Positions 5,859 through 62,489 of a stretch of 64,000 bases of DNA are shown here, in pieces. Origin of the DNA: Chloroflexota bacterium (lineage in GTDB: Bacteria > Chloroflexota > Anaerolineae > B4-G1 > DUEL01); assembly GCA_014874475.1 (NCBI GenBank), contig JADBJJ010000032.1, positions 124,001 to 188,000 on the forward strand, written 5' to 3'. Under the pieces are notes generated by a model. It was not told where the DNA came from and searched no databases. It was given only the letters and a program-made list of their open reading frames with translations. The translations under genes were made by a program, and so were the position numbers. Numbering within the stretch: the stretch's first letter is position 1; each line of letters starts with the position of its first letter.

Positions 5859-7250
5859 TCAGTTCAGGATGTACGGAATCTGATCGGGGGGCGGTACAGG
5901 AGTAAGGATATAGACGTCTACCCAGCGATACCAGAGGATCAGGTCGTCATCGTTGTATCCCAGGTCAATCCGCCGCCCCTTGATGGCACCACCGGTATCC
6001 GCCGCAAACCCGATGCCGTAGCCAGGGACGTAGACGCGGGAGCGGAGCGGAATCACGCGCGGGTCCACAGCGACGATGCCCCGCCGCATAGGCAAGCCCA
6101 AACGGGTATAGCCGTAGTAGGGACTGGTCTTGGGCACCCCCGCCGTGGACGCACTGTAGGAGGTCGCTAGCATCCGGATGACTCGCCAGTACTCCACCGT
6201 GCCTTCAGGGGTATCCAGTTGTCGGACGACGATCTTTGTCCCGTAGCCGATGATTTTATCTGCCGGCGGCACGGCGACGTACTGATCTTCCAGAGAGCGA
6301 GCGACCTCTACGCCGTTCTCGTAGCGCACCCGCCAGCGCCGTTGGAGAATGCCCGCTGCGCCCTCCTGGATCAGCCGCCGATGGTCTATCTCCAGTTCGG
6401 GGTCTGGCTGCCAGCGCACCGAATAAGGGATCGGTTCCTGCTGGACCAGGAACGCTTCTGCCACCCGAACCACCTGGACGACGGTCTCTTCGCCCAGGGG
6501 AGTCTCCGGTGACGGGTTGGTGTAGTCCTGACCGACCAGGACGATGCCCAGGTCGGCCAGCACCTCCCCTACCCCGCTGCGGTGAGTCCGGGTGCGAATG
6601 GTCTTTCCGTCTACCAGTACCGTAACCGGTCGGGAGCGCTCCAGGTAGATATGCATCCCGGCGGAGACCGGCTGTCCCAGATCGGGCCGGACGCTGTCGG
6701 CCCGATAGAGGGCCAGTCCGAGTTCTTCCAGCGCCTGTCCGACCGTCGGCGCGGCTGTGAAAAAGGAGATAGCCCGACCGCCCTCGTGAAGGGTCACCGG
6801 CACCGCGCGGGCGACCTGGATCAGCCGATCACCCACGCAGTCCGGTATGGCTGTTGATTCGCAGGAGGCGACGGTGACCCGGTCAACAGGTTGGAGAGAG
6901 ATGCCGGCCTCGGTCAAAATCTGGTCGGTAGTGGTGGCATGCATCCAGATCGTCCAGGTCTGCCCATCAGCCTGGATGGTCACCGGGCGGGCCCGGGAGA
7001 CGGTCACAGACATCCCCGGCTGCAGGATCGTCTCGGGGGCCGGCTCCACAATGTCCTCGGGACGGAGGCTCAGGCCAACGTCCAGCAGCAACGCGCCGAC
7101 TGTCTGCTGATGGGTACGGACTGGGCGGGCCTCTCCGTCCACGACCAAGGTGACCCGAATCGCATCAGCCTGGTAGGTCGCGGCCAACCCACCCACTAAT
7201 AGCAAAACCGCCAGGGCCACCGCGCCCTGAATCATCCAGTTCCAGTTCAT
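5859..7250 (-). CDS. DUF348/G5/3D-domain cell-wall protein (YabE/YuiC-like)
   Basis: 463 residues from the ATG reading MNWNWMIQ. An N-terminal TM segment (about 6-26) is followed by three DUF348-type repeats (each with RPVRTHQQTVGALL-like sequence) and a G5-like stretch. The C-terminal 3D domain has VDPRVIPLRSRVYVPGYG and DTGGAIKGRRIDLG; the Asp residues (three Ds) are thought to form the active centre of MltA-like and Rpf-like glycan-cleaving enzymes. A peptidoglycan-remodelling role is inferred. The longer frame to 7349 is rejected because it runs into the SRP RNA gene. Confidence 0.85.
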   Translation of the reverse strand: MNWNWMIQGAVALAVLLLVGGLAATYQADAIRVTLVVDGEARPVRTHQQTVGALLLDVGLSLRPEDIVEPAPETILQPGMSVTVSRARPVTIQADGQTWTIWMHATTTDQILTEAGISLQPVDRVTVASCESTAIPDCVGDRLIQVARAVPVTLHEGGRAISFFTAAPTVGQALEELGLALYRADSVRPDLGQPVSAGMHIYLERSRPVTVLVDGKTIRTRTHRSGVGEVLADLGIVLVGQDYTNPSPETPLGEETVVQVVRVAEAFLVQQEPIPYSVRWQPDPELEIDHRRLIQEGAAGILQRRWRVRYENGVEVARSLEDQYVAVPPADKIIGYGTKIVVRQLDTPEGTVEYWRVIRMLATSYSASTAGVPKTSPYYGYTRLGLPMRRGIVAVDPRVIPLRSRVYVPGYGIGFAADTGGAIKGRRIDLGYNDDDLILWYRWVDVYILTPVPPPDQIPYILN

Positions 7251-40247: not shown

Positions 40248-40430
40248 GTAGCCGTAGCAGCCGCAACGGTCCGGTATCACACAGACAAATGTGCATCCTT
40301 CCGGACACCCTGACCCTCCTCCGTCGCTTTGCGCTACTGCTACTGCTCCGGGTGACCGCGTCACTGCGAGTGGCAGCACAAGAATCAGGCACAAAGCAGG
40401 CAGAAGCAGAAACCAGAATCCTCTGCGCAT
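40248..40430 (-). pseudogene. Secreted Cys-rich protein gene cut by the CRISPR repeat
   Basis: The ATG at 40430 opens a signal peptide (MRRGFWFLLLPALCLILVLP) followed by a mature part with GSGCPEGCTFVCVIP and CGCYGYV. The frame then runs into the CRISPR repeat at 40247, so the 3' part is lost. About 61 residues remain. Family unknown. It lies 15 bases downstream of the next gene, in the same apparent operon. Confidence 0.6.
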
Positions 40431-40445
40431 ACATACCCTCTACTC

Positions 40446-41237
40446 TTACGGGAGAGATACTCCGTGGACGTACGCCAAGGCGCGGTACTTCGCGCCGTCC
40501 CACTCCAGCATCCACCGCGAGATGCCGCGATCGCCACGGGCAGTTTCCACTTCCTGATTATCCGATAGGCGATGGAATATAGTAGTCACTTGACCACTCT
40601 CGTAGAAAATCCATACATAGACCCCTGCGGGGTCTTGATAGACGGCTTTCACCTTGTCTGGACTGAACCCGGCGGGATCCCAAACAGACCAGACGGATTT
40701 TTCCTCAGCCAATCGGCGGACAATGGTACTCCAAGTCACCTCGGCATACTGCCCTGGGACGAAGTACTCCTCCCGCTCATTGTAGCCGGGCTTGCGCTCG
40801 AATGGGTTACCATCTACATTGGACCAGAAGCGGTAGATTTCGGCGAAGTCCCGCAGGGCAATTTCACGGGTGCATCTGGCCGCCTCAATCTTCCACACCC
40901 CATCACGGCTGGGCAGGGTATCACCCATCGGAGCCGCCTCCGGCGCAGTACACTCCTCCGGCGCGGCCGTGGGAAGTTCCGCCGGCATCGGCGTCGGCGT
41001 GGGCGTGGGCGTGGGAGTGGGCGTGGGCGTGGGCGTCGGTGCTTCGGCGGTTGCCGTCGGGGTCAGGGCCGGGACCAGCGACTGCTCCGGCTCACCTTCC
41101 GGCAACGGAGTGAAGGTCAGCACCAAGACCAGTAGGCCCAGCGCCAAGAGCAGGCTCAGACCCACAAGCCCGGCCCACACTTTCAGCCGCGGACTCTTTG
41201 GTGGTTTCTTCGAGGCTGACGAGTATTCCGTGTACAT
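40446..41237 (-). CDS. Membrane-anchored protein with TP-repeat linker, unknown function
   Basis: 263 residues; the ATG follows AAGGAG. A short cytoplasmic N-terminus, one TM helix (about 22-43, GLVGLSLLLALGLLVLVLTF), a Thr-Pro repeat linker (about 60-85, PTPTPTPTPTP) encoded by GGGCGTGG-type tandem DNA, and an extracytoplasmic domain with two cysteines (EECTAPEAA and AARCTREIAL). The C-terminal domain has GVYVWIFYESGQVTTIFH and SRWMLEWDGAKYRAL. I do not recognise the family. It is intact, between CRISPR repeats on both sides. Confidence 0.75.
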   Translation of the reverse strand: MYTEYSSASKKPPKSPRLKVWAGLVGLSLLLALGLLVLVLTFTPLPEGEPEQSLVPALTPTATAEAPTPTPTPTPTPTPTPTPMPAELPTAAPEECTAPEAAPMGDTLPSRDGVWKIEAARCTREIALRDFAEIYRFWSNVDGNPFERKPGYNEREEYFVPGQYAEVTWSTIVRRLAEEKSVWSVWDPAGFSPDKVKAVYQDPAGVYVWIFYESGQVTTIFHRLSDNQEVETARGDRGISRWMLEWDGAKYRALAYVHGVSLP

Positions 41238-41265
41238 TTCTCCTTGTTCTCCTTGTTCGTTTTTG

Positions 41266-41399
41266 TCAAGGCTGCCGCCTCACCCGCATCTCGCTCGTGC
41301 CAGCGGCGCGGATGACGAGCGGGATGCGGGTCAGGCCGGGGATGAGCGGCCGGACGGTGGCCTGCATCCGTACCTCCACCGTCCGGTTGTTGTTATTGA
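41266..41399 (-). pseudogene. C-terminal gene fragment (TadE-like?) cut by the CRISPR repeat
   Basis: The minus strand encodes about 43 residues to a stop at 41266: NNNNRTVEVRMQATVRPLIP, then GLTRIPLVIRAAGTSEMRVR. The upstream part would lie beyond 41400 but there the repeat begins. The pattern is like the C-terminus of TadE-type pilus proteins, tentatively. Its stop lies 28 bases before the start of the membrane-anchored protein gene. Confidence 0.5.
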
Positions 41400-51676: not shown

Positions 51677-52060
51677 TCAAACCGACCGGCGGACACGGGC
51701 GGAATCCCGCTGCGCTTGCAGGTTCATCACTTCAGCAATCTCATAGCGCGGCGGGATGCCCTCCACAGGCCGAAGACGGACACATGGGGGGAAGTAGCCC
51801 ATGCGTCCATGCAGTTCGGCTATTAGAAGGGCAGCGGCAAAACTGAGCGACGGCGGCACGACCACCAGCGGCAGAGTCTGCCACTCGGCAGGAGATAGCC
51901 CGGCCCGGTCGGCCAGTTCCACCACCTGGGGGCCGAATGGCTTGCCGGTGTCCAGGTGGGTGGGGATTTCCACCACCCGCTCCACCGACTGGCCAGTCAG
52001 CGCATGTAGTTGGGCTATGTGGTCGGGAGTGAGCGGATGAGAGAAGTTCAGGACGATCAT
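51677..52060 (-). CDS. csx15: CRISPR-associated protein Csx15
   Basis: 127 residues. MIVLNFSHPLTPDHIAQLHA, then LTGQSVERVVEIPTHLD, AEWQTLPLVVVPPSLSFAAA, LIAELHGRMGYFPPCVRLRP: the Csx15 family pattern, found only beside type III CRISPR loci. Csx15 has been proposed to bind or remove cyclic oligoadenylate; I am not certain how well this is established. Its ATG overlaps the stop of the CARF-HEPN gene (ATGA), so effector and Csx15 are made together, which fits a dampening role. Confidence 0.85.
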   Translation of the reverse strand: MIVLNFSHPLTPDHIAQLHALTGQSVERVVEIPTHLDTGKPFGPQVVELADRAGLSPAEWQTLPLVVVPPSLSFAAALLIAELHGRMGYFPPCVRLRPVEGIPPRYEIAEVMNLQAQRDSARVRRSV

Positions 52061-53283
52061 CGGGCCTCTTCCAGTCCCCACCTCCGGGCCAGTTCCTTCA
52101 GGGCGGGGAGAATCTCCGTCTGCGTCTTCTGGCTCAACTTACGGGCATCCATCGGATCAGACCTCATCCCGGCGTGGTCCAAGTCGTTGCGGACCGCGGT
52201 CAAATGGTTCCACAGGTCGCTGAGGCACTCCGCCTCTGGCCGCTCCATCAGTTCCCGGCCCACTTCGTTCAATTCACTGGGAGAAGGGCGTCTCCGTTTG
52301 ACCCAGCAGAGGCCCGAAAGCCCCTGTTCTATCCTCTCCCGTTCTTTCTTTTTCAGGACAAAGGCTCCCATCTGCTGCCAGCCGACGGCAGTGACCACCC
52401 ATTCCCGGGCCAGGGTGACGGCCTGGATAATCCGATCGCGTTCGGCGTACCAGCAGATCAGGCCCAGTTGGCGCTGCAGGCTCTCCCGGACGTTCTGGAG
52501 GGGCTCGGTGAGGGCGTGGCGGCCGTATTCCTTTTCTATTCGCCCGATCATCACTTCAAAGGGACGGGCCCAGTAGGGGATGTCCTGGCTGGCTTTTTTG
52601 AGGACGTTGCTCAATCGGCCTGCTTTCTCCATGACCTCCAGGGGGCGACAAAGCATAATGGCGCGGGAGAAGTCCTCCAGGTCTCCTCCGGCGTTCTTCA
52701 GCGCGCCGGAGCCCCGGGCCTCTCCTTGCTGGGCCAGGAGGCGGGCCAGATACCGGGCGTCGCCGGTGTAGATGAACTGATTGGTCGCTGCCAGCCAGTC
52801 CAGCAGAGAGACGAAAGGGGTCAGGTCAAAGACGGGGCGAGGGTCCGGGTCTGTCCGGGGCCGGGCCTCGTATGCGCCGTAGACGACGGCATGGATGTGG
52901 ACCCGGCGAGCAGCCCGCAGGTATGCCGCCGCCAGAAAGACCAGGAAGGGGATAGACCGGAAGGAGTGGGTGATATCAAAGATGACCTGCTCCCCTTCCT
53001 CCACCTTCTCCGTCAGCACGGAGAAGATTTGCCAGAGTTCCTCCTCGGACTGGCCGTCCGGTATGGGGACGACCTGGAGCCGCTCCGACGGTATCCGTTC
53101 CTTCAACCGCTGGAGGTTAGGATGAGACTGAACGGCCGCCGTGGCGAAGAGGTAGAGAGTCTCCAGGTCCGGGAAAAAGCAAAACAGCGCCTGGGGGAAC
53201 AGGTTGGTCGTGCACTTCTGTCCCTTATAGACATAGGTGACGGTCTGGTAGTCACTTGTCCCCAGAAAAGAGAGCCCTTTCAT
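52057..53283 (-). CDS. csx2: CARF-HEPN ribonuclease of the Csx1/Csx2 (TM1812) family
   Basis: 408 residues. The N-terminal CARF domain: KGLSFLGTSDYQTVTYVYKG, then FPQALFCFFPDLETLYLFAT, IPDGQSEEELWQIFSVLTEK and VIFDITHSFRSIPFLVFLAA, which form the family's cyclic oligoadenylate pocket. The helical C-terminus has the HEPN RNase motif R-x4-H in TAVRNDLDHAG (about residue 365). Activated by cOA from Cas10, it would cut RNA non-specifically. No Csm6 is present, so this is the likely main effector. Confidence 0.88.
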   Translation of the reverse strand: MKGLSFLGTSDYQTVTYVYKGQKCTTNLFPQALFCFFPDLETLYLFATAAVQSHPNLQRLKERIPSERLQVVPIPDGQSEEELWQIFSVLTEKVEEGEQVIFDITHSFRSIPFLVFLAAAYLRAARRVHIHAVVYGAYEARPRTDPDPRPVFDLTPFVSLLDWLAATNQFIYTGDARYLARLLAQQGEARGSGALKNAGGDLEDFSRAIMLCRPLEVMEKAGRLSNVLKKASQDIPYWARPFEVMIGRIEKEYGRHALTEPLQNVRESLQRQLGLICWYAERDRIIQAVTLAREWVVTAVGWQQMGAFVLKKKERERIEQGLSGLCWVKRRRPSPSELNEVGRELMERPEAECLSDLWNHLTAVRNDLDHAGMRSDPMDARKLSQKTQTEILPALKELARRWGLEEAR

Positions 53284-53295
53284 CGCTGCTCACCC

Positions 53296-54396
53296 CTAAC
53301 GGCCTTCTCCCTCCAGTTCTACTAGAACCCATCCCAGGGGATACTCGGGGAGGACCTGATTCTGGGAGCGGCGGGCGGAGAGGCGGCGGCTGCGCGGGAA
53401 GGGACGGGCCAGATTGGGCTGCCAGACCCGACCGGCCCTGGGGGGCTTTCCCAGTTGGTAGCGGCGGCGGAGCGTATCCTGCTCTTGTTGGGAAAGCCAG
53501 AAGCCGACGCTCTTCGCCGTCCAGCCAGCGCCCCAGCCGATCTGGAGAAGAAAGGCGCGCGGGCCCAGAGGGGTTCGAGCCAACGGGCTATAGAGAGATA
53601 CGACTTTCTGAAAGGACTGATGGCGCTTATACCATTCCATCTCCCGTTCAATCCGGGCCCGGCTGATCTTGTTGGCGATCTGGGCCAGATCGGTCAGCCA
53701 CTGGCGCCGGTCGGTGAAGCGGAGGGTGCTGGCGGCCTCGGAGAAGAGATACTCGTCCAGAGACAGGGTGGTGTGGAAGACAGTATCCGGCTTCACCGCT
53801 TCCAGAACGATGGGAGCGCCGGGTTTGCTATCCGCCGTAAAGACCTGGGCGTTCACCAGCATCAGCGGCAAGGGGGAAAGCGGCAGAGGGTCACTATCGG
53901 CAATTCGCAGCGCCCGCATCAGGTCCTGGTTGGGGTTTGGGCCGAAGACGGCGCGCTCCCAGGGCTCTCCGGCCCGCTCCCGCCGCTCCCCCAGCGCCTT
54001 CAGGTCGGGCTTCCAGTAGCCAGAGCGCAGGGCATGGATCATCAGGACAGTGCGCAGCGCGCCCTTGAGGGAGGATCCGGGCAGGTAAGGGCGGCCGTAC
54101 GGGTCCTTCAACTGCTCCCGCACCTGGCTCTCGGTCACTTCACCCTTCAGGACATACCGAACGAAAGGGGACTCTTCACTCAGTTCGTGATCCTGAACCA
54201 GTTGGCCAGGGGGAACCATCAGGAATTCCCAGGGCTCTCCTGGGCGGGCGCGGTCGTAGGCGTCAACCAGGATGGCATCCTGATTCAGGACCCAGGTCCG
54301 GCCCTGGCTGGTCTTGAAGTCGTAATCTCGCAAGAGCACCCGACCGGTCCCGATATGGAGCGGCGAAATCAGAGAGACTTTCAGCCGGTATATCAT
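53296..54396 (-). CDS. csm5: Type III-A effector subunit Csm5
   Basis: 366 residues from the ATG reading MIYRLKVSL. RAMP fold: SLISPLHIGTGRVLLRDYDF, the PYGRPYLPGSSLKGALRTVL glycine-rich loop, and a C-terminal LPEYPLGWVLVELE. Csm5 caps the 3' side of the crRNA in the Csm complex and helps recruit maturation nucleases. It overlaps csm4 by four bases. Longer than many Csm5 proteins only if the 42 upstream residues were counted; they are not family-like. Confidence 0.9.
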   Translation of the reverse strand: MIYRLKVSLISPLHIGTGRVLLRDYDFKTSQGRTWVLNQDAILVDAYDRARPGEPWEFLMVPPGQLVQDHELSEESPFVRYVLKGEVTESQVREQLKDPYGRPYLPGSSLKGALRTVLMIHALRSGYWKPDLKALGERRERAGEPWERAVFGPNPNQDLMRALRIADSDPLPLSPLPLMLVNAQVFTADSKPGAPIVLEAVKPDTVFHTTLSLDEYLFSEAASTLRFTDRRQWLTDLAQIANKISRARIEREMEWYKRHQSFQKVVSLYSPLARTPLGPRAFLLQIGWGAGWTAKSVGFWLSQQEQDTLRRRYQLGKPPRAGRVWQPNLARPFPRSRRLSARRSQNQVLPEYPLGWVLVELEGEGR

Positions 54397-55409
54397 AGCA
54401 GCGCCTCCTGGGCAACGGGCACTGGAAAAGCCAGGCCGTACCGTAGCACGGGGCGGTCGCCGAACACCCCTACGCCCTCCGGCTTCAGGTCGGCAACGGT
54501 TCCCAGCGAAGAGCCGTCCCATCGCAAGACGCTCCCCTCACAGACCATCCGCACCTGTTTGCGTCGCCAGGCGTGGCCGGCGTCGTCCTGACACCACCCC
54601 CCTATCCAGACCAGTTTATAGGCGGCATGCTCGGATTGAAGGGCAGCGGCGACCTCGGCCTGGCTGGCCGGAAGGTAGCGGGAAAGGGTCACAGCGTAGC
54701 CGGAGGGGGCGGGCCAGGCCGGCAGGGCGGTCTCCCCGATGGTGAACGTGAACGCGCCGTGTCCGATGGAGCGCAGGCCGCCCAACCCAGCGTCGGCCAG
54801 ATAGTTGAGCGCGCGTTCCAGGCGGGCGAAAGCGCCCGAAGCGACGGGCTCCACCACGAACCACAGGCCGCAACCGGGCCCGAAGGTCAACCGTCCGCTG
54901 AAGAAGAGGTTAGACGCATTGCTGGCGCGGTCAAGCGCCACACGAGGCACCGGCGGATACGTAGACCAGAACTGGGTCCACTCTGCAAGCCCTTTGGGCG
55001 GAGGGGGGAGAAGGGGCATGTCCTCCGGGTGGAACCAGATATCGCCGATAAAGTGCTCCAGTCGGGCCAGGGAGGTGATGTCATCCCCCTGGAGCAGGCG
55101 GACAAAGATGCGCTCAGAGCACCAGGCGAACCGGGAGAGTTTCTTGCCCAACTCTTCCCGCTGTTTCTGACCGACGCGGATCCGCACGAAGGGGCGCGGG
55201 TAAAGGCGAAGACTTCCCACGCGCGGAAAGGCCGAGGTCAGGCGCAGGGGCGGAGGGACGAAAGGGCCGGGCTCCCCCGCGACGCTCCAGGCGTAGACGA
55301 AGGCGGCGTAAAGGGTATCGCTGGGGATATAGGGCAACGTCTCCTCCCGGCCCACGCCCAGTTCCCCCACATGAAACGAGCCGCGCGGATACAGGTCCAC
55401 CGCAATCAT
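54393..55409 (-). CDS. csm4: Type III-A effector subunit Csm4
   Basis: 338 residues from the ATG with AGGAGG upstream. Cas5-like RAMP: MIAVDLYPRGSFHVGELG, YIPSDTLYAAFVYAW, the SNLFFSGRLTFGPGCGLWFV segment and the Gly-rich GGLRSIGHGAFTFTIGE. Csm4 binds the 5' repeat tag of the crRNA and contacts Cas10. Order csm2-csm3-csm4-csm5 is the standard type III-A order. Confidence 0.92.
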   Translation of the reverse strand: MIAVDLYPRGSFHVGELGVGREETLPYIPSDTLYAAFVYAWSVAGEPGPFVPPPLRLTSAFPRVGSLRLYPRPFVRIRVGQKQREELGKKLSRFAWCSERIFVRLLQGDDITSLARLEHFIGDIWFHPEDMPLLPPPPKGLAEWTQFWSTYPPVPRVALDRASNASNLFFSGRLTFGPGCGLWFVVEPVASGAFARLERALNYLADAGLGGLRSIGHGAFTFTIGETALPAWPAPSGYAVTLSRYLPASQAEVAAALQSEHAAYKLVWIGGWCQDDAGHAWRRKQVRMVCEGSVLRWDGSSLGTVADLKPEGVGVFGDRPVLRYGLAFPVPVAQEALL

Positions 55410-55425
55410 CGGCGGCCTCCTTAAT

Positions 55426-56244
55426 TTATTTTTCGACGTCAAGGGAGTCCTGGACCCATCTCAGTATCTCATCTTTTGCTCCTATGAGATCCGCCAAAGT
55501 GGAGTATGGCCCCATCTCTCCCAGCACCTCGTACACCTTGACCCGCTTGATGGTCAGCCTCAGTTCCTCAAAGCGGACTTTGCCGGAGCCCCGGCTCCCC
55601 TGCCCGCCCAGGTAGTCATCCTCCAGCAACTGCATCGCGGTGAAGAGATGGCCCAGGAGGACCACATCGTTGCCCAGGTAGAGGTTCAAGACCAGTTCCA
55701 TCGGCGCAAAGACCGTATCAGCCGGGACGCGCTCCAACGGGCGGGGGACGGCCGCGCTGGTCACCCGGTCAATCGCGGCCTCCCATTTGACCTCGGTGTA
55801 GGGCATATCGGTGCGGACGGATAAGAGCCTCCGGGCACTGCTCTGTTCACCCTTCCGCTCATCGTCTTCCAGCGGCACGTCGCGGACGATCAATCGGGTG
55901 GGCGCCGGGACGTTAAATTTGACCTCGCCGGGGACGCCGAAGAGAGGGTTGACCCAGTATTCCTCATACTGCTTCTCGTCCTCGGCGACATGGATGTTTA
56001 CATTGCCGATGGAGCGGTTTTGCGGTGCGCCGGTCACCCTTTCGGCCAGGGAGCGCATCTTCCCCTTGAGGGAGGAGCCGGGGATGTAGGGCCGTCCGGT
56101 CACCGGATCACGGATGACGGGATTGTCCACGTTGCCAATGGCCAGAGCGCCGGGCGAGCCGCCGATATGCAGTCCCGTCACAGTGCGGATCTGTCCGGTG
56201 ATGAAAACTCGTCCGATCAGAGTCAGAGTCTTCTCCTGGTTCAT
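55426..56244 (-). CDS. csm3: Type III-A backbone subunit and target-RNA nuclease Csm3
   Basis: 272 residues; AGGAGG precedes the ATG. RAMP fold with TGLHIGGSPGALAIGNVDNP, the PYIPGSSLKGKMRSLAERV loop, YTEVKWEAAIDRVTSAAVPR and DYLGGQGSRGSGKVRFEEL. The catalytic Asp of Csm3 (Asp33 in S. thermophilus) corresponds to Asp40 in GNVDNP and is kept, so 6-nt interval cleavage of target RNA is expected. Multiple copies form the backbone along the crRNA. Confidence 0.96.
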   Translation of the reverse strand: MNQEKTLTLIGRVFITGQIRTVTGLHIGGSPGALAIGNVDNPVIRDPVTGRPYIPGSSLKGKMRSLAERVTGAPQNRSIGNVNIHVAEDEKQYEEYWVNPLFGVPGEVKFNVPAPTRLIVRDVPLEDDERKGEQSSARRLLSVRTDMPYTEVKWEAAIDRVTSAAVPRPLERVPADTVFAPMELVLNLYLGNDVVLLGHLFTAMQLLEDDYLGGQGSRGSGKVRFEELRLTIKRVKVYEVLGEMGPYSTLADLIGAKDEILRWVQDSLDVEK

Positions 56245-56254
56245 GACTTGCCTC

Positions 56255-56698
56255 CTAATTTCCGCCGTATGCCTTGTGGAAGGCCACGATGGCCTCAAAG
56301 AAGTCCATGAATCGGTTGAAGCGGGCCTCTCGCTCCTTCTCATCTTTGGCCTCGCTGACCATCGCTAGGGCAGGGTCAAGCACCTCACGCAGGTCTTCCA
56401 TACCCCTCCCTTCCCGTTCCCGTCTGGCGAAGTAACTCAGCTTGGGGCGCAGGAGGACGGCCTCCCGGTAGGCGCTTTCCGGGTCGATGGGCCAGCGCAG
56501 TTGAATCTGGCGCGCCGTGCCGAAGACGTTGCGAATCTGGCTGGTGGTCACCCGTTTTTGGGCAATGTCTGCGCCAATTTCTTGGGCATATTTCACCAGC
56601 GTCTCCGGGTCGCCCTCAACAATGATGCGCCTGATCGTCTTATCCCGCTCGGATGTGGGAGCCATTTGTTGTTTTTCTGAAGAACTCTGGCTGCGCAT
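56255..56698 (-). CDS. csm2: Type III-A small subunit Csm2 (Cas11)
   Basis: 147 residues; the ATG follows GAGGAGG. Helical Csm2 with VKYAQEIGADIAQKRVTTSQ, IRNVFGTARQIQLRWPIDPE and RPKLSYFARRERE, then a helix LDPALAMVSEAKDEKE and RFNRFMDFFEAIVAFHKAYG. Csm2 copies stack along the target strand opposite Csm3. About 150 bases lie between it and cas10 upstream; I see no gene there. Confidence 0.92.
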   Translation of the reverse strand: MRSQSSSEKQQMAPTSERDKTIRRIIVEGDPETLVKYAQEIGADIAQKRVTTSQIRNVFGTARQIQLRWPIDPESAYREAVLLRPKLSYFARREREGRGMEDLREVLDPALAMVSEAKDEKEREARFNRFMDFFEAIVAFHKAYGGN

Positions 56699-56847
56699 TT
56701 GGACCTCCTCTTGACACGAAACTCTAAGGATATTGTACCAGTGAATGAGCAATCCGGCTTCGGGTATCTCTTCGTGGTCCCCTCAGTTCCTCCTTGTGGC
56801 TGTGATCTCACCGGCTTCGGGCGGAACGGTCTTCCGACCGGATGGGG

Positions 56848-59307
56848 CTACTCACCTTTTCGTTCACTGCTGGCCTCTCCCTTGCGGATCAGGAACTCAG
56901 CCCAGCGGGCGGCCAGGCCGATAATCTGGATCAGGTCCGCCGAATGGAGCAGTTGGTCCCGGAGGGCGATGATGCCCTCTTTGACCTCACTATCTTTGAC
57001 CCGGGCCGCTGCGCGGGTCAACTGGTAGAAGGAGACCCACATCCACCGGCCAAAGTGAAGCCGGCGCCGCTGGTTCCGTTTTTGGGTGCGCTCAAATTCG
57101 GCCGCGATTTCCAGGAGGTTCTGGAGCAGAGCCTTGGGCGTGCTCCGGTTCTCGCACCAGTCGGCCAGTTCCTCGGCGCGCCGTCGGGCCTCAGCGAACT
57201 GGTCCCAGGATAACACCTGGCCCAAGAAGGTGACGGCGTTTTTGCCCGGCAAGCCTTTGGCCAACTTTTCGGCATCCCGGGCCTCGCGGGCGGCCTGATA
57301 AAGGGGATACTTGAGGTGGGCCAGGCTGATGCCGCCGGAAAGGGTGATCCCCGGATTCTGGGCCACGTAGTCAGCAAAGGAACGTCGCACCCGCTGGGCG
57401 AACTGAGGCAGGGCATCCCACGCGCCCACGATAAACAGGTCATCGCCCCCGGCATACTGGAGGTAGAGCCGCTGGCGCATATCTTCAGAGTCCTCCTCCT
57501 GCGGACCGGCCAGGTAGGGCAGCCAGCCCTCAAAAAAGAAGCGCAGGCTGGAGGAGAGGGTCGCCAGGCGGGAGAGAGTCAGATTCCGCTGGAAGAGTTG
57601 CCCCAGGTCGTCCACGTCCATCCGCAACACCCCCCAGCGCGGGATGCCCCGGGAGCGCTGGCCCAATTGTTCAAAGGTCGGGTAGTCGTCCGGTACCAGT
57701 TGGGCCAGAGGACGCACCGTCCACACCACCGGGATCGGGTCCAGCGCGGCGAGAAGCGACTCTTCTTTCTCCCTTTCCGGCACCGGGAATGGGCTGATCC
57801 GGGCCAGGGTCACCCCCTCCAGAGGGGGGAGGGCGTTGCGCTTCTGCAGGGGCTGGCGGACATCAACCAGGGCCACCCGGACTCCGAAGGCCTCCAATCC
57901 CTCGTTCCAGGTACGGACGGAGGATCCCTGGGAGAGGTTGGGAATCGGGGCCTGAAGCCAGAGGAGATGAGTGGCGTGAGTCAAAGCACGGCCCAGGTCC
58001 TCAAAACTGGCGCAGCGCTCACATTTGCGGATGGGCTCGGCGCCAGGCTCTCCCTCTGTATAGAAGCGTTCGTCCTCCTGCTGCTCGGCCCCGCAGATGC
58101 TGCAACTCTTATCCCGATCTCCCCCGACGCCCAGCGGCTGGCCGACGAGGGCGAAGAGTTCCTGCTCGGGGAGGGAAGCCAGCGGGCGGTACTTGGCCGG
58201 AAGGAGACAGTCCTCGTGGAGCCGCCGCCAGGCTTCAGGGAAGCGCTCGCGATCAAACTCTCCCTTCTTCAGAGAAGTCCAGGCCAGGGACAGGTGGACT
58301 GTCCCTCCATGGGCGATGACCAGCCGCCGGGTCACCTCGCGGTGGATGTCCTTCAGGGCCTCCCGCTGGCGGACGCCAGCCAGCAGGTAGAAATTGCCCC
58401 CGCCGGCGTAAATCAGATTGGTCGGCGGGAGGCCCAACTGGCGCAGGATGAAATCGGCCACCGCCTCGGTCAGCAACTGGACATAGAATGAGCGGCCGCG
58501 CAGGGTCCGGGCCGCGCCTGCGGAGGAGAGGCTGTAAATGAAGTCCTGAACGCCGGCCATATCTCCGGCGACCAGGATAGCCACTTCTTCGTCGTCCCCG
58601 GCGGTCCGGCACCATTCCCCGCTGCGGCCGTCCACGGCCAGGCAGACCGCCAGCGCGGCCGTCATCCGGCTATGGTCGTACAGGCTGACATCGGGCACAG
58701 CGTTGAAGTAGGCGGAGGGGATACACCAGGTGAACTCCAGCATCCGCTGCAGGAGGACCTCCAGAAAAAGGGCCGGGTCTGAAATCTCTTTCAGCGGCTG
58801 GCAGGCGCGCGTAAAATCCTCCCATAGCCCGAAGTATTCATCCCGATGCTCTTTCTTCCACTCCGTTGTCCCTTCCGGTTTGGGGAAAATGACCTGGCGC
58901 TGAAATGCCAGACGCCTGAGGGGGAGATACCAGGGCTTATCGCCTTCCTGCAGTCGGCTGAAGATGGAGCGCAGGTAGGGGACGCTCCGGTCATCCTGTT
59001 CCCCATCCAGTTCCGCCCGCTCTCCAGCGGAGAGGCCGTCGGCCAGGCGAACCCGTTCGTCGCCCTCGCTGCGCGGAGCGTGATGGTAAACCACTCCGCT
59101 CAGTTCCTTCCGGGCTTCTGGGGGAAGGGCGACGGCAAAATCCTGGACGAAGGAGTACCCAGCCAGAGCATGGGCGTATTTGACGTCTCTCAGAGCCTCG
59201 GCGTCGGGTATCTCTCGCAGAGGAGCATCGGCCCGCTGGGCAAACTTGCCAATGTCGTGGAGCAATCCGGCCAGGGCAATCCGATAGATGGCTTCTCTTT
59301 CTTCCAT
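56848..59307 (-). CDS. cas10: Type III-A Cas10 (Csm1), HD nuclease and cOA synthetase
   Basis: 819 residues; GGAGG lies upstream of the ATG. The N-terminal HD domain has AGLLHDIGKFAQRADAP (His17-Asp18) and VVYHHAPRSEGDERVRLADG, which should cut single-stranded DNA. A zinc-binding stretch CSICGAEQQED...KCERC lies in the middle. The second palm domain has QYAGGDDLFIVGAWDAL (GGDD at about residue 619), which makes cyclic oligoadenylate from ATP when target RNA binds. All three active elements look intact, so DNase and signalling should both work. Confidence 0.96.
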   Translation of the reverse strand: MEEREAIYRIALAGLLHDIGKFAQRADAPLREIPDAEALRDVKYAHALAGYSFVQDFAVALPPEARKELSGVVYHHAPRSEGDERVRLADGLSAGERAELDGEQDDRSVPYLRSIFSRLQEGDKPWYLPLRRLAFQRQVIFPKPEGTTEWKKEHRDEYFGLWEDFTRACQPLKEISDPALFLEVLLQRMLEFTWCIPSAYFNAVPDVSLYDHSRMTAALAVCLAVDGRSGEWCRTAGDDEEVAILVAGDMAGVQDFIYSLSSAGAARTLRGRSFYVQLLTEAVADFILRQLGLPPTNLIYAGGGNFYLLAGVRQREALKDIHREVTRRLVIAHGGTVHLSLAWTSLKKGEFDRERFPEAWRRLHEDCLLPAKYRPLASLPEQELFALVGQPLGVGGDRDKSCSICGAEQQEDERFYTEGEPGAEPIRKCERCASFEDLGRALTHATHLLWLQAPIPNLSQGSSVRTWNEGLEAFGVRVALVDVRQPLQKRNALPPLEGVTLARISPFPVPEREKEESLLAALDPIPVVWTVRPLAQLVPDDYPTFEQLGQRSRGIPRWGVLRMDVDDLGQLFQRNLTLSRLATLSSSLRFFFEGWLPYLAGPQEEDSEDMRQRLYLQYAGGDDLFIVGAWDALPQFAQRVRRSFADYVAQNPGITLSGGISLAHLKYPLYQAAREARDAEKLAKGLPGKNAVTFLGQVLSWDQFAEARRRAEELADWCENRSTPKALLQNLLEIAAEFERTQKRNQRRRLHFGRWMWVSFYQLTRAAARVKDSEVKEGIIALRDQLLHSADLIQIIGLAARWAEFLIRKGEASSERKGE

Positions 59308-59447
59308 CACAACCTCCGGGTGGTTGAGTCGCGGGTCGCAAAGTGCAAGGGATTGGGCACTACCATCGCAACCCGGGCCTGAATCATGGGCCTGCACCGT
59401 GCAGAAACAGGCGTCCTTCGGTCAGAGAGCGCTTTTTCTCCGGTATC

Positions 59448-60278
59448 TCAATCCGTCCCCCCCACCCTCCTCCTCACCTGCCCCATTCCAGTCGTCGTCT
59501 GATATCCCACTCCGGCGTAGAAGGCGTAGTCCGTCAGCGCCCTCAGGATGCCCACCCAGTAGGGGTCAGCCCGGAGGACGGTATAGCGGCAATAGCCCAC
59601 AAAACCGATCTGCATCCCGCCCCCCTTCCCCGGCACCGAGCGGGTGGAGAGTTCGTACCGGCTGATGGCCAGGCACTCTTGAGCGAACCGCCGGACCTCC
59701 GGAGAGACCGTCGCCGGCGCAAACTCGTTCCACTTTTCCAGCAGGCTCCCGTAGACCAGGTCCGGCAGCGGCAGGGGGACGTTGCGCCCGCCGGAGTGAA
59801 AGGCGGTGGGGGAGAAGAACTCCAGTTCCAGGTGACGGGGCAACGGCTCCTCCGTCGGCAAGGTTTTCCTCAGCAGCGCCTGATACGTCGTCTGGCCCGC
59901 CCAGGGATGGACAGAAGGGTCCAGCGTCGCCCCCTGGAGGGCCAGCCAGGCCCCCTCTATCTCCACCACTCGGGGCGGCGCCTCGGCCCAGCGAATCAGA
60001 TGCTCCGAAATCTCCGCAGTCAGCCCGGTGTAGCGCAGAAAGAGGGGACGGCCCGGGACGACCACGGCCTTCAATTCCCCGTTCACCCGCTCCATACGCA
60101 CCCCCACCAGCGACGAGCAGGTGAAGGGGCGGCGTTCATCCGCGGCGTGCAACCGTTCGGCCAGGGCGGGGTCCCGTTCGGCCACCCCTTTCAGGAACAG
60201 AGCATGGCTGGCCCGTCCCAAATGCGGCGGCAAGACCGCCTCCTCCCCCTGAAACATCAGGACGAGACTGGTCAGCAT
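59448..60278 (-). CDS. cas6: crRNA-processing endoribonuclease Cas6
   Basis: 276 residues. Two ferredoxin-like halves; the C-terminal glycine-rich RNA-binding loop reads AGVGYQTTTGMGQVRRR. Earlier segments are LELEFFSPTAFHSGGRNVPL and KGGGMQIGFVGYCRYTVL. The early RASHALFLKGVAE could hold a catalytic His. It would cut the repeat at the base of the AATGCCC/GGGCATT hairpin, leaving the 8-nt ATTAAGAC tag. First gene of the minus-strand operon, with a candidate promoter at 60373-60400. Confidence 0.93.
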   Translation of the reverse strand: MLTSLVLMFQGEEAVLPPHLGRASHALFLKGVAERDPALAERLHAADERRPFTCSSLVGVRMERVNGELKAVVVPGRPLFLRYTGLTAEISEHLIRWAEAPPRVVEIEGAWLALQGATLDPSVHPWAGQTTYQALLRKTLPTEEPLPRHLELEFFSPTAFHSGGRNVPLPLPDLVYGSLLEKWNEFAPATVSPEVRRFAQECLAISRYELSTRSVPGKGGGMQIGFVGYCRYTVLRADPYWVGILRALTDYAFYAGVGYQTTTGMGQVRRRVGGTD

Positions 60279-60372
60279 ATCACCTCCATTTTACTTACGC
60301 CATGCGCCAGGTCAACAGAGAAATCTCCGATTTTGCTCAGAGTTTTCTCGGATGCCAGGATGGGCAAACCAG

Positions 60373-60400
60373 TGTATACTGGACAATGGACGAGAGACAA
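60373..60400 (-). promoter_or_regulatory. Candidate promoter of the cas operon
   Basis: On the minus strand TTGTCT (60400-60395), 16-base spacer, TATACA (60378-60373). Start would be near 60366, leaving a leader of about 90 bases to cas6. Confidence 0.5.
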
Positions 60401-60415
60401 CCTACCGATGGCTGG

Positions 60416-61285
60416 CTATCGGCTGATCGCCAACCAGGGGCTGAACTTTTCCCGAAGGAAATGGTACGTGAGGTGAGTGCCATCCGGCATCCCCCAGGCG
60501 ACGCGGCATTCGGCGAGAATCTGGCTCTTGTGGCTATCCAGCGTCTTCAGCGTCATGCCCAGTTGCTCGGCTGCGTCCTGAAGGGAGGGGGCGAAGACCA
60601 GTACCCGCAGGACCTCCCGCTGCCGCTCTGTGAGCCGATCCCAGACGGCAGCACAGCAAGCGGCGTCCCCGGGAGTCAGGGTGGGCGCAGCAGGGGGACG
60701 GGCCAAAACCCGCAGGGCCGGGAAGTAGACGCCCCAGGGGGCGAAGGGGATGGGGATGAGGCGGACACCCGCCTCCGGGGGGGCGTGGAGAATGGTTCCT
60801 TCGCGCGCCCGTTCCAGGAACTCCGGGGGCGTGTAGAGATGCCAGCAGCGATCCTGATGGTCGCAGTGGAGCATAGCCGCGGTGACCAGCATCAGCGCCA
60901 GAAGGCGCGGGCCGCCCGCGATGCAGAGGTGCAGCGCCTGGCCTTCTGCCTTCAACTCCGCCAGCAGGTCGCGCGCCAGCGACCAGACCGCCTCCGCTTC
61001 CGCGCCGTTGGTAATCGCCGTCAGCGGTCGTCCCTGGGCGTGCAGGGGAACGCGGCGAAATTCCAGGGGGCGGCCTCCGTACTGCCCACCCGCAAATTCG
61101 GCACTCAACTGGGCCAGCGCCCGACGCACCCGGAGATCTTCGGGGGAAAGATGGAGGACCAACACTTGGGAAAGCAGTTCACCCATCGCCAGCAACCCGT
61201 CCACAGCAAAGGTGACGACCTGAGCCTGTCCGCCCATCGTCACCAGGGCAACCTTCCCGTCCGGCAAATAGGCAACCGTCCGCAT
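60416..61285 (-). CDS. CARF (NE0113-like) protein fused to a LuxR-type HTH
   Basis: 289 residues from the ATG reading MRTVAYLPDG. Residues 1-190 match the Cas_NE0113-type CARF domain: LVTMGGQAQVVTFAVDGLL, VLVLHLSPEDLRVRRALAQL, the conserved LCIAGGPRLLALM (120-132) and CWHLYTPPEFL. Residues about 217-262 are a LuxR/GerE-type HTH: LTERQREVLRVLVFAPSLQD, AAEQLGMTLKTLDSHKSQIL. It has no HEPN or nuclease domain. It should be a cyclic-oligoadenylate-responsive transcription factor, perhaps also a ring nuclease. It is divergent from the P-loop/Csx3 gene with only 37 bases between. Confidence 0.8.
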   Translation of the reverse strand: MRTVAYLPDGKVALVTMGGQAQVVTFAVDGLLAMGELLSQVLVLHLSPEDLRVRRALAQLSAEFAGGQYGGRPLEFRRVPLHAQGRPLTAITNGAEAEAVWSLARDLLAELKAEGQALHLCIAGGPRLLALMLVTAAMLHCDHQDRCWHLYTPPEFLERAREGTILHAPPEAGVRLIPIPFAPWGVYFPALRVLARPPAAPTLTPGDAACCAAVWDRLTERQREVLRVLVFAPSLQDAAEQLGMTLKTLDSHKSQILAECRVAWGMPDGTHLTYHFLREKFSPWLAISR

Positions 61286-61294
61286 ACAATGAGA

Positions 61295-61300
61295 ATTATA
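61295..61300 (-). promoter_or_regulatory. Candidate -10 box of the CARF-HTH gene
   Basis: TATAAT on the minus strand (61300-61295) lies 9 bases before the ATG at 61285, which would give a nearly leaderless transcript. The -35 (TTTGCG) is weak and overlaps the start of the neighbouring gene; the intergenic region is a natural operator position. Confidence 0.45.
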
Positions 61301-61322
61301 GGCCAGAACGTAGAGAACGCAA

Positions 61323-62489
61323 ATGGACTGGTATAACCCGCTGCCCGCCGTTGTCATTGGAGGGCCGCCCCACAGCGGCAAATCGGTTCTGGCGTACACC
61401 CTGACCCGCGCTCTGCGCGCCCGAGATATCCCCCACTACCTCCTGCGAGCCTACCCGCCCGATGGTGAAGGGGACTGGTTCCTGGAAGGGGAGCCGGATA
61501 TCGTCCGCCATCTGCGGGTCAAAGGCGCGATAAGCCAGCGGTGGCTCCCCCTGATCCGGCAGGACATCGCGCGCCGCCATCTCCCCCTCATCGTGGACAT
61601 GGGCGGCCTCCCCACGCCGGAACAGGAGTCCATCCTGGACGAGTGCACCCATGGGATTCTGCTGACCCCCTCCGACGAGGCCCATCGGGAATGGAGCGAC
61701 CGTTTCTCCGCCCACGGCTTAGTCCTCCTGGCCGACCTGCGCTCCGACCTGAGCGGGGTCAACCAGATAGAGGCGGTGGAGCCCGTCGTGCGGGGCGTCT
61801 TGGCCGGGCTGGAGCGGGGAAGAACGGCCTCCGGCCCCGCCTTTGACGCGCTGGTGGAGCGACTGGCCGCTCTCTTCATACCCTTCGCCGTCAACCTCTA
61901 CCGCCGCCACATCGCAGCCGCGCCCACAGAACTGGTGGTGGACCTGGAGCGACTGGCCCAGAGGCTGGGCTGTAAACCCACAGATTGGTGCCCGAATGAC
62001 CTTCCGGCTGTGCTGGACTATCTGCCGGCAGGGGAACCGCTGGCCCTCTACGGCCGGGGGCCGAACTGGCTCTATGCGGCCATCGCTGTCCACGCACTCC
62101 CGGCCCCTTTCTACCTCTTTGATGCCCGTCTGGGGTGGACGGCGCCCCCGACCCTTCACATCGGGGCCCCTTCGGTCGGCCCTCTACAGGTGAAAGAACG
62201 CCGGGAAAAGGAATCTCCAGTCACCTACATGGAGTTCTCCATCCCCGAGGGCTACCTGGATATCACCGAAGTGGAGGGGCTGGCCATTCCACCTCCCCCA
62301 GCGGATGGATTGGTTCTCAGCGGCAAAATCCCCCTATGGCTCTGGACTGCTCTATCCCGCCTCTACGCGCCCCTGACCTCCTGGCTGGCGGTGGTCCAGC
62401 CGCAACTGACGGCGCAAGGGGTCGGCTGGGCTGTCGTGGTCCACAGCCGGACCGCTTTCCCCATCGGCTCCTGCATCGGTATGGGATGA
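61323..62489 (+). CDS. csx3: P-loop ATPase fused to two Csx3-like domains
   Basis: 388 residues. The N-terminal P-loop (GGPPHSGKSVLAYTLTRAL, Walker A at 14-21) with WFLEGEPDIVRHL, LPLIVDMGGLPTPEQ and ECTHGILLTPSDEA matches the ATPase of known Csx3-AAA proteins. C-terminal to it are two Csx3-like units. Unit 1 (about 226-280) has YGRGPNWLYAAIAVHAL and LFDARLG with His257 and Asp267. Unit 2 (about 302-385) has LSGKIPLWLWTALSRLY and QPQL, lacking the His and Asp. Csx3 degrades or sequesters cyclic tetra-adenylate. The domain order is opposite to the cyanobacterial Csx3-AAA. Confidence 0.82.
   Translation: MDWYNPLPAVVIGGPPHSGKSVLAYTLTRALRARDIPHYLLRAYPPDGEGDWFLEGEPDIVRHLRVKGAISQRWLPLIRQDIARRHLPLIVDMGGLPTPEQESILDECTHGILLTPSDEAHREWSDRFSAHGLVLLADLRSDLSGVNQIEAVEPVVRGVLAGLERGRTASGPAFDALVERLAALFIPFAVNLYRRHIAAAPTELVVDLERLAQRLGCKPTDWCPNDLPAVLDYLPAGEPLALYGRGPNWLYAAIAVHALPAPFYLFDARLGWTAPPTLHIGAPSVGPLQVKERREKESPVTYMEFSIPEGYLDITEVEGLAIPPPPADGLVLSGKIPLWLWTALSRLYAPLTSWLAVVQPQLTAQGVGWAVVVHSRTAFPIGSCIGMG

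Follow-up and report, generated by a model that had tools for sequence, protein, structure and literature searches.

Among the closest described systems is Csa3, which consists of a CARF domain and a winged HTH and is thought to pass the type III signal on to transcription (PMC8844856, PMC8699464). That CARF proteins can act as regulators is a known idea: NE0113 proteins, which are without effector domains, were predicted to be transcription regulators in 2014 (Makarova; PMC4012209), and a 2022 review listed Csa3, a transcriptional regulator, as the only characterised CARF effector that is not a nuclease (PMC9704534). A census published in 2024 left transcription factors aside (PMC11229360), and the ring-nuclease census of 2025 dropped proteins longer than 250 aa (PMC12409355). 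Beyond Csa3 and Calp, little is known about the way type III systems are turned on, and about whether their alarm molecule feeds back on their own transcription. A literature search combining CARF, LuxR and type III CRISPR returned only two general phage-defence reviews. Four features described below appear to be new, namely the HTH of LuxR type, the AAA-Csx3 partner, the operator with its regulon and the two-way promoter, and the fusion itself may have been mentioned before in a CARF classification or accessory-gene census.

The CARF-LuxR protein, its family and its divergent partner

The window, which is the whole stretch of 64,000 nucleotides analysed here (contig JADBJJ010000032.1 of a Chloroflexota bacterium), contained a type III-A locus with the following genes and domains.

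60416-61285, minus strand: gene of the putative CARF-LuxR regulator (289 aa, ATG start)
60701-61255, minus strand: its CARF (NE0113/PF09623) domain, residues 11-195 (Pfam, AlphaFold2 model, nearest solved folds, profile A2)
60500-60640, minus strand: its LuxR/NarL-type HTH, residues 216-262 (Pfam near-matches and family profile)
61323-62489, plus strand: AAA-Csx3, a MinD/ParA-like P-loop ATPase with a Csx3-like domain (388 aa; PDLC01059, 3.5e-124)
59448-60278, minus strand: cas6, which opens the operon downstream of the predicted operator (profile matches)
53296-59397, minus strand: csm1 (Cas10, GGDD intact) to csm5, type III-A (profile matches)
52057-53283, minus strand: Csx1-type CARF-HEPN effector (profile matches)
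51677-52081, minus strand: Csx15, cA4-binding family (profile match; PMC13148439)

From 39982 to about 50000, the window also carried a very long CRISPR array with at least 116 copies of GTCTTAATGCCCTGTCGGGCATTGGGAGTTTGCTAC. The array was interrupted for 1.2 kb at 40248-41389 and contained a duplicated spacer block, from 43467 and 44690 onward.

The CARF-LuxR gene was found where the original prediction had placed it, and the NE0113-like CARF part that it described was matched by PF09623 (Cas_NE0113) over residues 22-195 with E = 8.4e-29 and 101.3 bits (cut-off 23). The AlphaFold2 model (pLDDT 82.7) had a Rossmann-like CARF fold, and the nearest solved folds to the CARF part were Cad1-CARF (Z 17.4) and the Crn1 ring nucleases (Z about 17), at 2.4-2.8 A over 152-162 residues, both of which bind cyclic oligoadenylate. 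A CARF-only profile (A2) matched Sso2081 with an E value of 9e-10 and supplied the residue register. In the window protein by itself, the HTH, predicted to be of the LuxR/GerE type, fell slightly short of the Pfam cut-offs, and residues 216-262 gave 19.9 bits for GerE (cut-off 23.5) and 20.9 bits for Sigma70_r4_2 (cut-off 25.7). The GerE cut-off was exceeded in the relatives L097, L101, L102 and L065 (31.5, 30.9, 39.9 and 39.0 bits), and a family profile of 10 sequences matched the HTH domains of LiaR, VraR and NarL with E of about 3e-9. Csa3_N (PF22662) gave no match to the window protein at E <= 1, and the HTH resembled GerE and sigma-4-like models, in agreement with the prediction that it differs from the winged HTH of Csa3. 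The PADLOC profile PDLC01855 ('CARF3--CARF') spanned the entire protein (3.7e-94); the full-length family is already in PADLOC, under a label that mentions no HTH. With a CARF sensor joined to a LuxR/NarL-type HTH in a type III-A locus with a GGDD-intact Cas10, the protein is best read as a transcription regulator.

The PDLC01855 profile was run over 400 genomes of the phylum Chloroflexota and revealed about 50 full-length members spread over the phylum, with named relatives in Thermoflexus, Thermoflexales and other Anaerolineae. The members from the genome search and from further loci were aligned (71 sequences), and the tree showed two groups, one of 56 close members and one of 13 distant members. 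The distant members often lay immediately before csm1 and were co-directional with it; a plasmid of Rhodothermus marinus (L104) had this layout, with a CARF and HTH protein at 5980-6885 heading the csm operon. This protein (WP_041806822) is annotated as 'CRISPR-associated ring nuclease' by NCBI, and TIGR02584 is labelled likewise. Phage or viral relatives were searched for, and none was found.

AAA-Csx3 (PDLC01059) was present in 47 of the 400 genomes. In a tally over the genome searches, all AAA-Csx3 genes not cut by a contig end adjoined CARF-LuxR head to head, and the pair was divergent in all 54 fetched loci that held both genes. The divergent position beside a P-loop/Csx3 gene had been correctly recognised. 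The spacer between the two genes was mostly 20 to 60 bp (37 bp in the window), and the start codons overlapped in several loci. Among the fetched loci, no AAA-Csx3 was seen beside the distant members. Extra truncated copies of CARF-LuxR without AAA-Csx3 were observed in L094 and L063, whose genomes also carry a full copy. In L044 (102-167 and 935-2524), a Csx1-like ORF divergent from CARF-LuxR occupied the usual place of AAA-Csx3, and the antisense-side promoter described below was retained.

Tandem dyads and predicted divergent promoters

The original prediction had proposed the spacer at 61286-61322 as the operator for control of both CARF-LuxR and its neighbour, together with a near-leaderless start. 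The operator was not borne out there: no palindromes above those of shuffled sequences were found in the CARF-LuxR/AAA-Csx3 spacers of 45 loci, and a matching spacer dyad was present in L101 and L086 only. The near-leaderless start remained plausible from a TATAAT just before the ATG; the element was conserved in L095, L096 and L097, with an insertion at this site in L097.

61295-61300, minus strand: putative -10 (TATAAT) for CARF-LuxR, 9 nt ahead of its ATG, a spacing kept in L095 and close to that of L096 (10 nt)
61317-61322, minus strand: weak -35 TTGCGT of CARF-LuxR, 16 nt from the -10 and directly adjoining the start codon of AAA-Csx3

On the 3' side of CARF-LuxR, comparison of close relatives revealed conserved blocks in the stretch that separates its stop codon from the following gene, and these blocks contained palindromes of the form TCAGAG-N4-CTCTGA. 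The corresponding elements in the window were as follows.

60337-60352, no strand: dyad 1 of the predicted operator, TCAGAGTTTTCTCGGA on the plus strand, the sole TCNGAGN4CTCNGA in the 3.0-Mb genome
60315-60330, no strand: dyad 2 of the predicted operator, ACAGAGAAATCTCCGA on the plus strand, 22 bp from dyad 1
60310-60315, minus strand: -35 TTGACC of the predicted cas6-csm promoter, overlapping the dyad edge
60288-60293, minus strand: -10 TAAAAT of the predicted cas6-csm promoter, 21 nt after dyad 2
60375-60380, plus strand: -10 TATACT of the predicted opposite promoter, 22 nt after dyad 1, antisense to CARF-LuxR and directed toward AAA-Csx3

In a pattern search, the tandem site was unique in the window's own 3.0-Mb genome even at 3 mismatches. 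In 35 loci, two 16-bp palindromes of the form TCNNNN-N4-NNNNGA, 22-23 bp apart, lay no more than 230 nt from the stop codon of CARF-LuxR. With no fixed sequence assumed, 6-4-6 palindromes at a 22-bp step and a score of at least 10/12 were found in 11 of 44 representatives, against 0.5 expected. The dyad ends (TC...GA) were shared by all of them, and the inner half-site depended on the lineage (TC[AC]GAG, TCAGCA, TCAAGG, TCATGA or TCATAG); the TCAGCA lineage, which we take to be a Roseiflexus/Chloroflexus-like group, had a 23-bp step. A clear tandem dyad was missing in about 20 of the 56 clade members. Through their position and their co-occurrence with the gene, the dyads are a candidate operator of CARF-LuxR.

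Two further observations were set aside. At HTH residue 250, D accompanied half-sites with AG and N those with CA in suggestive counts, which amounted to 3 independent pairs (p of about 1) and were not significant once the tree was considered. The sequence AGTATACAC, invariant in L095-L097, was tried as an operator; its one-mismatch occurrences in the window did not exceed the chance level, and it proved to be the opposite -10.

The dyads of the 35 loci were picked blind to any -10, and the offsets of TANNNT were then counted. At offset 22, TANNNT was found in 20 of 35 loci on the cas side and 25 of 35 on the antisense side, while any other offset gave 0-4. The opposite -10 was TATACT or TACACT in 23 of 30. 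The 955 kb searched contained 61 matches to the composite element (dyads and -10), whereas 2.0 would be expected. The predicted starts in the window were near 60281 (minus) and 60387 (plus). Since the -10 offset is fixed at 22 nt on both sides, the proximal dyad is placed at about -42 and the distal dyad at about -64 for each promoter. By the position rules of class I and class II activators, a LuxR/NarL class II site (the lux box) lies near -42.5, and the dyads are predicted to occupy activator positions for two divergent promoters.

The dyads were also considered as RNA hairpins that would separate CARF-LuxR from the cas operon as terminators or processing sites. One dyad was terminator-like by score, which is no more than the chance level (0.9 expected), and the terminator reading was dropped. 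An Rfam search of the dyad element returned no family, and two dyads at a pitch of 22-23 bp, flanked on either side by a -10 at constant distance, are unlike terminators. Hairpins appear very unlikely.

CARF-LuxR could instead be a repressor: it would occupy the dyads as long as the cell is uninfected, and cyclic oligoadenylate (cOA) would release it, so that both the cas operon and the opposite promoter are derepressed. Local autoregulators are frequently of this kind, and in the window group the cas6 -35 is reached by the proximal dyad. Speaking against the activator circuit, the cas6 promoter of the window has a good -35 (TTGACC) and may be partly constitutive. However, the distances of the two dyad centres, and the constant 22 nt between dyad and -10, have the geometry of an activator, the dyads never cover the -10 or the start, and many loci have no recognisable -35 beside the dyad. 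We consider repression unlikely and activation from the dyads the preferred reading.

The genes behind the cas-side promoter were cas6 (the window and L079), csm1 (L087 and L102), cas10/cmr2 (L041, L043, L072, L085 and L086), cmr1 (L074) and a Can2-like CARF-PD(D/E)xK nuclease (L065 and L101). In L097, a second tandem-dyad promoter (736-801), which shows a single direction, preceded the cmr1 gene of a type III-B system at the far end of the locus; from this extra operator copy, a single regulator may serve two type III systems in L097.

The opposite promoter faces CARF-LuxR from its 3' side. AAA-Csx3, about 0.95 kb on, is the first gene ahead of it in sense orientation. At the level of sequence, this is the layout of an excludon, with divergent neighbours and a promoter antisense to one and sense to the other. 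A conserved antisense protein was rejected as the product, as long antisense frames were present in some relatives only. The opposite -10 might be a mere by-product of the symmetric dyads, with the element driving the cas side alone and AAA-Csx3 using its own spacer promoter, and a Shine-Dalgarno-like sequence does precede AAA-Csx3 in many spacers. Dyad symmetry, however, creates no -10; TATACT/TACACT lay at exactly 22 nt in 25 of the 35 loci and was better kept than the cas-side -10, and the second operator of L097 showed that the element can be one-directional. The by-product reading is a minor possibility, and the opposite promoter is taken below as a predicted functional element.

In L101 and L086, a spacer dyad with a -10 at 22 nt was aimed at AAA-Csx3 (read by eye in L086). 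These spacer dyads make AAA-Csx3 a likely direct target in the L101/L086 lineage, which fits the antisense route elsewhere. Control of the Csx3 neighbour, as originally proposed, was not upheld through the spacer promoter of the window and may hold through a long antisense transcript.

Predicted ligand-contact and ring-nuclease residues

In Sso2081, an Asp/Arg pair (Asp75 and Arg105) reads adenine, and R105A abolishes cA4 binding; S11A severely impairs Sso2081, while Ser11 is not critical in Sis0455 (PMC10018336). The Crn1 motif I (Thr10-Ser11) was Gly19-Gln20 in the window CARF-LuxR, outside the Crn1 motif, and Ser was never found at position 20 in the aligned relatives. Motif II (Arg105-Lys106) was Pro126-Arg127 in the window and Arg-Arg in most relatives, and Asp75 was Ala90 in the window and Asp in most relatives. 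D90 and R126 were found together in 54 of the 71 aligned rows, with the pair lost in the window lineage, and P126 was accompanied by loss of D90 in 13 of 14 rows. On the tree, the co-loss comprised about five changes and 4 independent pairs (p 0.125), a hint only, which suggests that the adenine-reading pair may be gained or lost as a unit. Because Pro126 and Ala90 replace the equivalents of Arg105 and Asp75, the affinity or the ligand may differ in the window protein.

These residues bear on whether CARF-LuxR is a ring nuclease with a vestigial HTH, as the NCBI labels of WP_041806822 and TIGR02584 and the presence of Crn1 among the closest CARF folds would suggest. Against this, Thr10-Ser11 is replaced (a point to be read with the non-critical Ser11 of Sis0455), and a predicted operator accompanies the gene, whose HTH is conserved. 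A ring nuclease is very unlikely, and a transcription regulator is retained as the reading of CARF-LuxR.

AfCsx3 requires H60, D69 and R71, and H57 and H80 are conserved (PMC7371418). The corresponding domain in the window was as follows.

62187-62489, plus strand: Csx3-like domain of AAA-Csx3, in which H57, H60, D69 and R71 of AfCsx3 are R, A, Q and Q

The catalytic residues of AfCsx3 were mostly replaced across the AAA-Csx3 family, and the window protein does not have those of the Crn3/Csx3 ring nucleases. The Csx3 fold was kept (Z 13.6 to AfCsx3, 1.5 A over 93 residues). Ahead of it, the N-terminal part resembled MinD/ParA-type ATPases (Z about 12.9). Ring nuclease activity of AAA-Csx3 is doubtful owing to these replacements, although the fold is kept. 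The Csx15 family is cA4-specific, and some of its proteins are non-enzymatic cA4 binders (PMC13148439); by analogy, AAA-Csx3 could possibly be such a binder, and the neighbouring Csx15 would indirectly favour cA4 as the ligand in the window locus. The ring-nuclease sites of CARF-LuxR and AAA-Csx3 both look degenerate, and this suggests that the CARF3-HTH family and AAA-Csx3, though both go by the name 'ring nuclease', may not be ring nucleases.

Proposed circuit and comparison with known systems

The domains and family of CARF-LuxR, the divergent pair, the dyads with two -10s at fixed distance and the kinds of genes downstream could be assembled into the following circuit. CARF-LuxR, presumably a dimer that acts as dedicated activator of the type III CRISPR locus encoding it, would be expressed at a basal level from its own near-leaderless promoter. 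Cyclic oligoadenylate made by Cas10 would be bound by the CARF domain, and the pair of LuxR-type HTHs would then engage the tandem dyads (60315-60352). Since the dyad centres lie at class II and class I activator positions, the cas6-csm effector operon would be induced, giving positive feedback. The opposite -10 (60375-60380) would fire a transcript antisense to CARF-LuxR that runs on into AAA-Csx3, and AAA-Csx3 would be induced while the CARF-LuxR gene is damped.

Taken whole, a second-messenger-sensing activator circuit of its own type III locus is judged reasonably probable. Its full form, a cOA-gated excludon in which a symmetric promoter yields an antisense RNA that silences the sensor and encodes AAA-Csx3, is proposed tentatively, at somewhat less than an even chance; if true, it would be positive feedback with a built-in timer. 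In bacteria, the CARF-LuxR family would link alarm molecule and transcription through one protein, at an exactly defined DNA site, and its constant, unexplained pairing with AAA-Csx3 becomes testable.

Csa3, like CARF-LuxR, has a CARF sensor followed by a DNA-binding HTH; it occurs in archaeal type I-A loci and binds cA4, whereas CARF-LuxR is bacterial, occurs in type III loci, has a LuxR/NarL-type HTH and an NE0113/CARF3-type CARF, and is distinguished by its obligate AAA-Csx3 partner and predicted tandem-dyad bidirectional promoter. The CARF family of CARF-LuxR is identical to the NE0113/PF09623 family (PADLOC CARF3--CARF). CalpL/CalpT/CalpS likewise gives a cOA-driven transcriptional response, in which cA4 triggers sigma factor release; it differs in acting through proteolysis of an anti-sigma factor, with no direct fusion of sensor and HTH. 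The CARF domains of Crn1 (Sso2081 and Sis0455) and Cad1 are the nearest folds, and the Thr/Ser motif of Crn1 is not kept in CARF-LuxR.

The partner shares the Csx3 fold with AAA-Csx3/C3a67 and Crn3/Csx3, and the window protein differs from Crn3/Csx3 in the four replaced AfCsx3 residues and in its N-terminal MinD/ParA-like P-loop domain. The HTH type and the dyad-to--10 geometry are those of LuxR/NarL activators; in CARF-LuxR, a CARF replaces the receiver or autoinducer domain, and a symmetric double dyad would serve two promoters. In excludons such as those of Listeria, the long antisense RNA is the mRNA of the divergent neighbour. The predicted layout here, read from DNA, is alike, with the difference that the switch of the antisense promoter would be the product of the overlapped gene itself.
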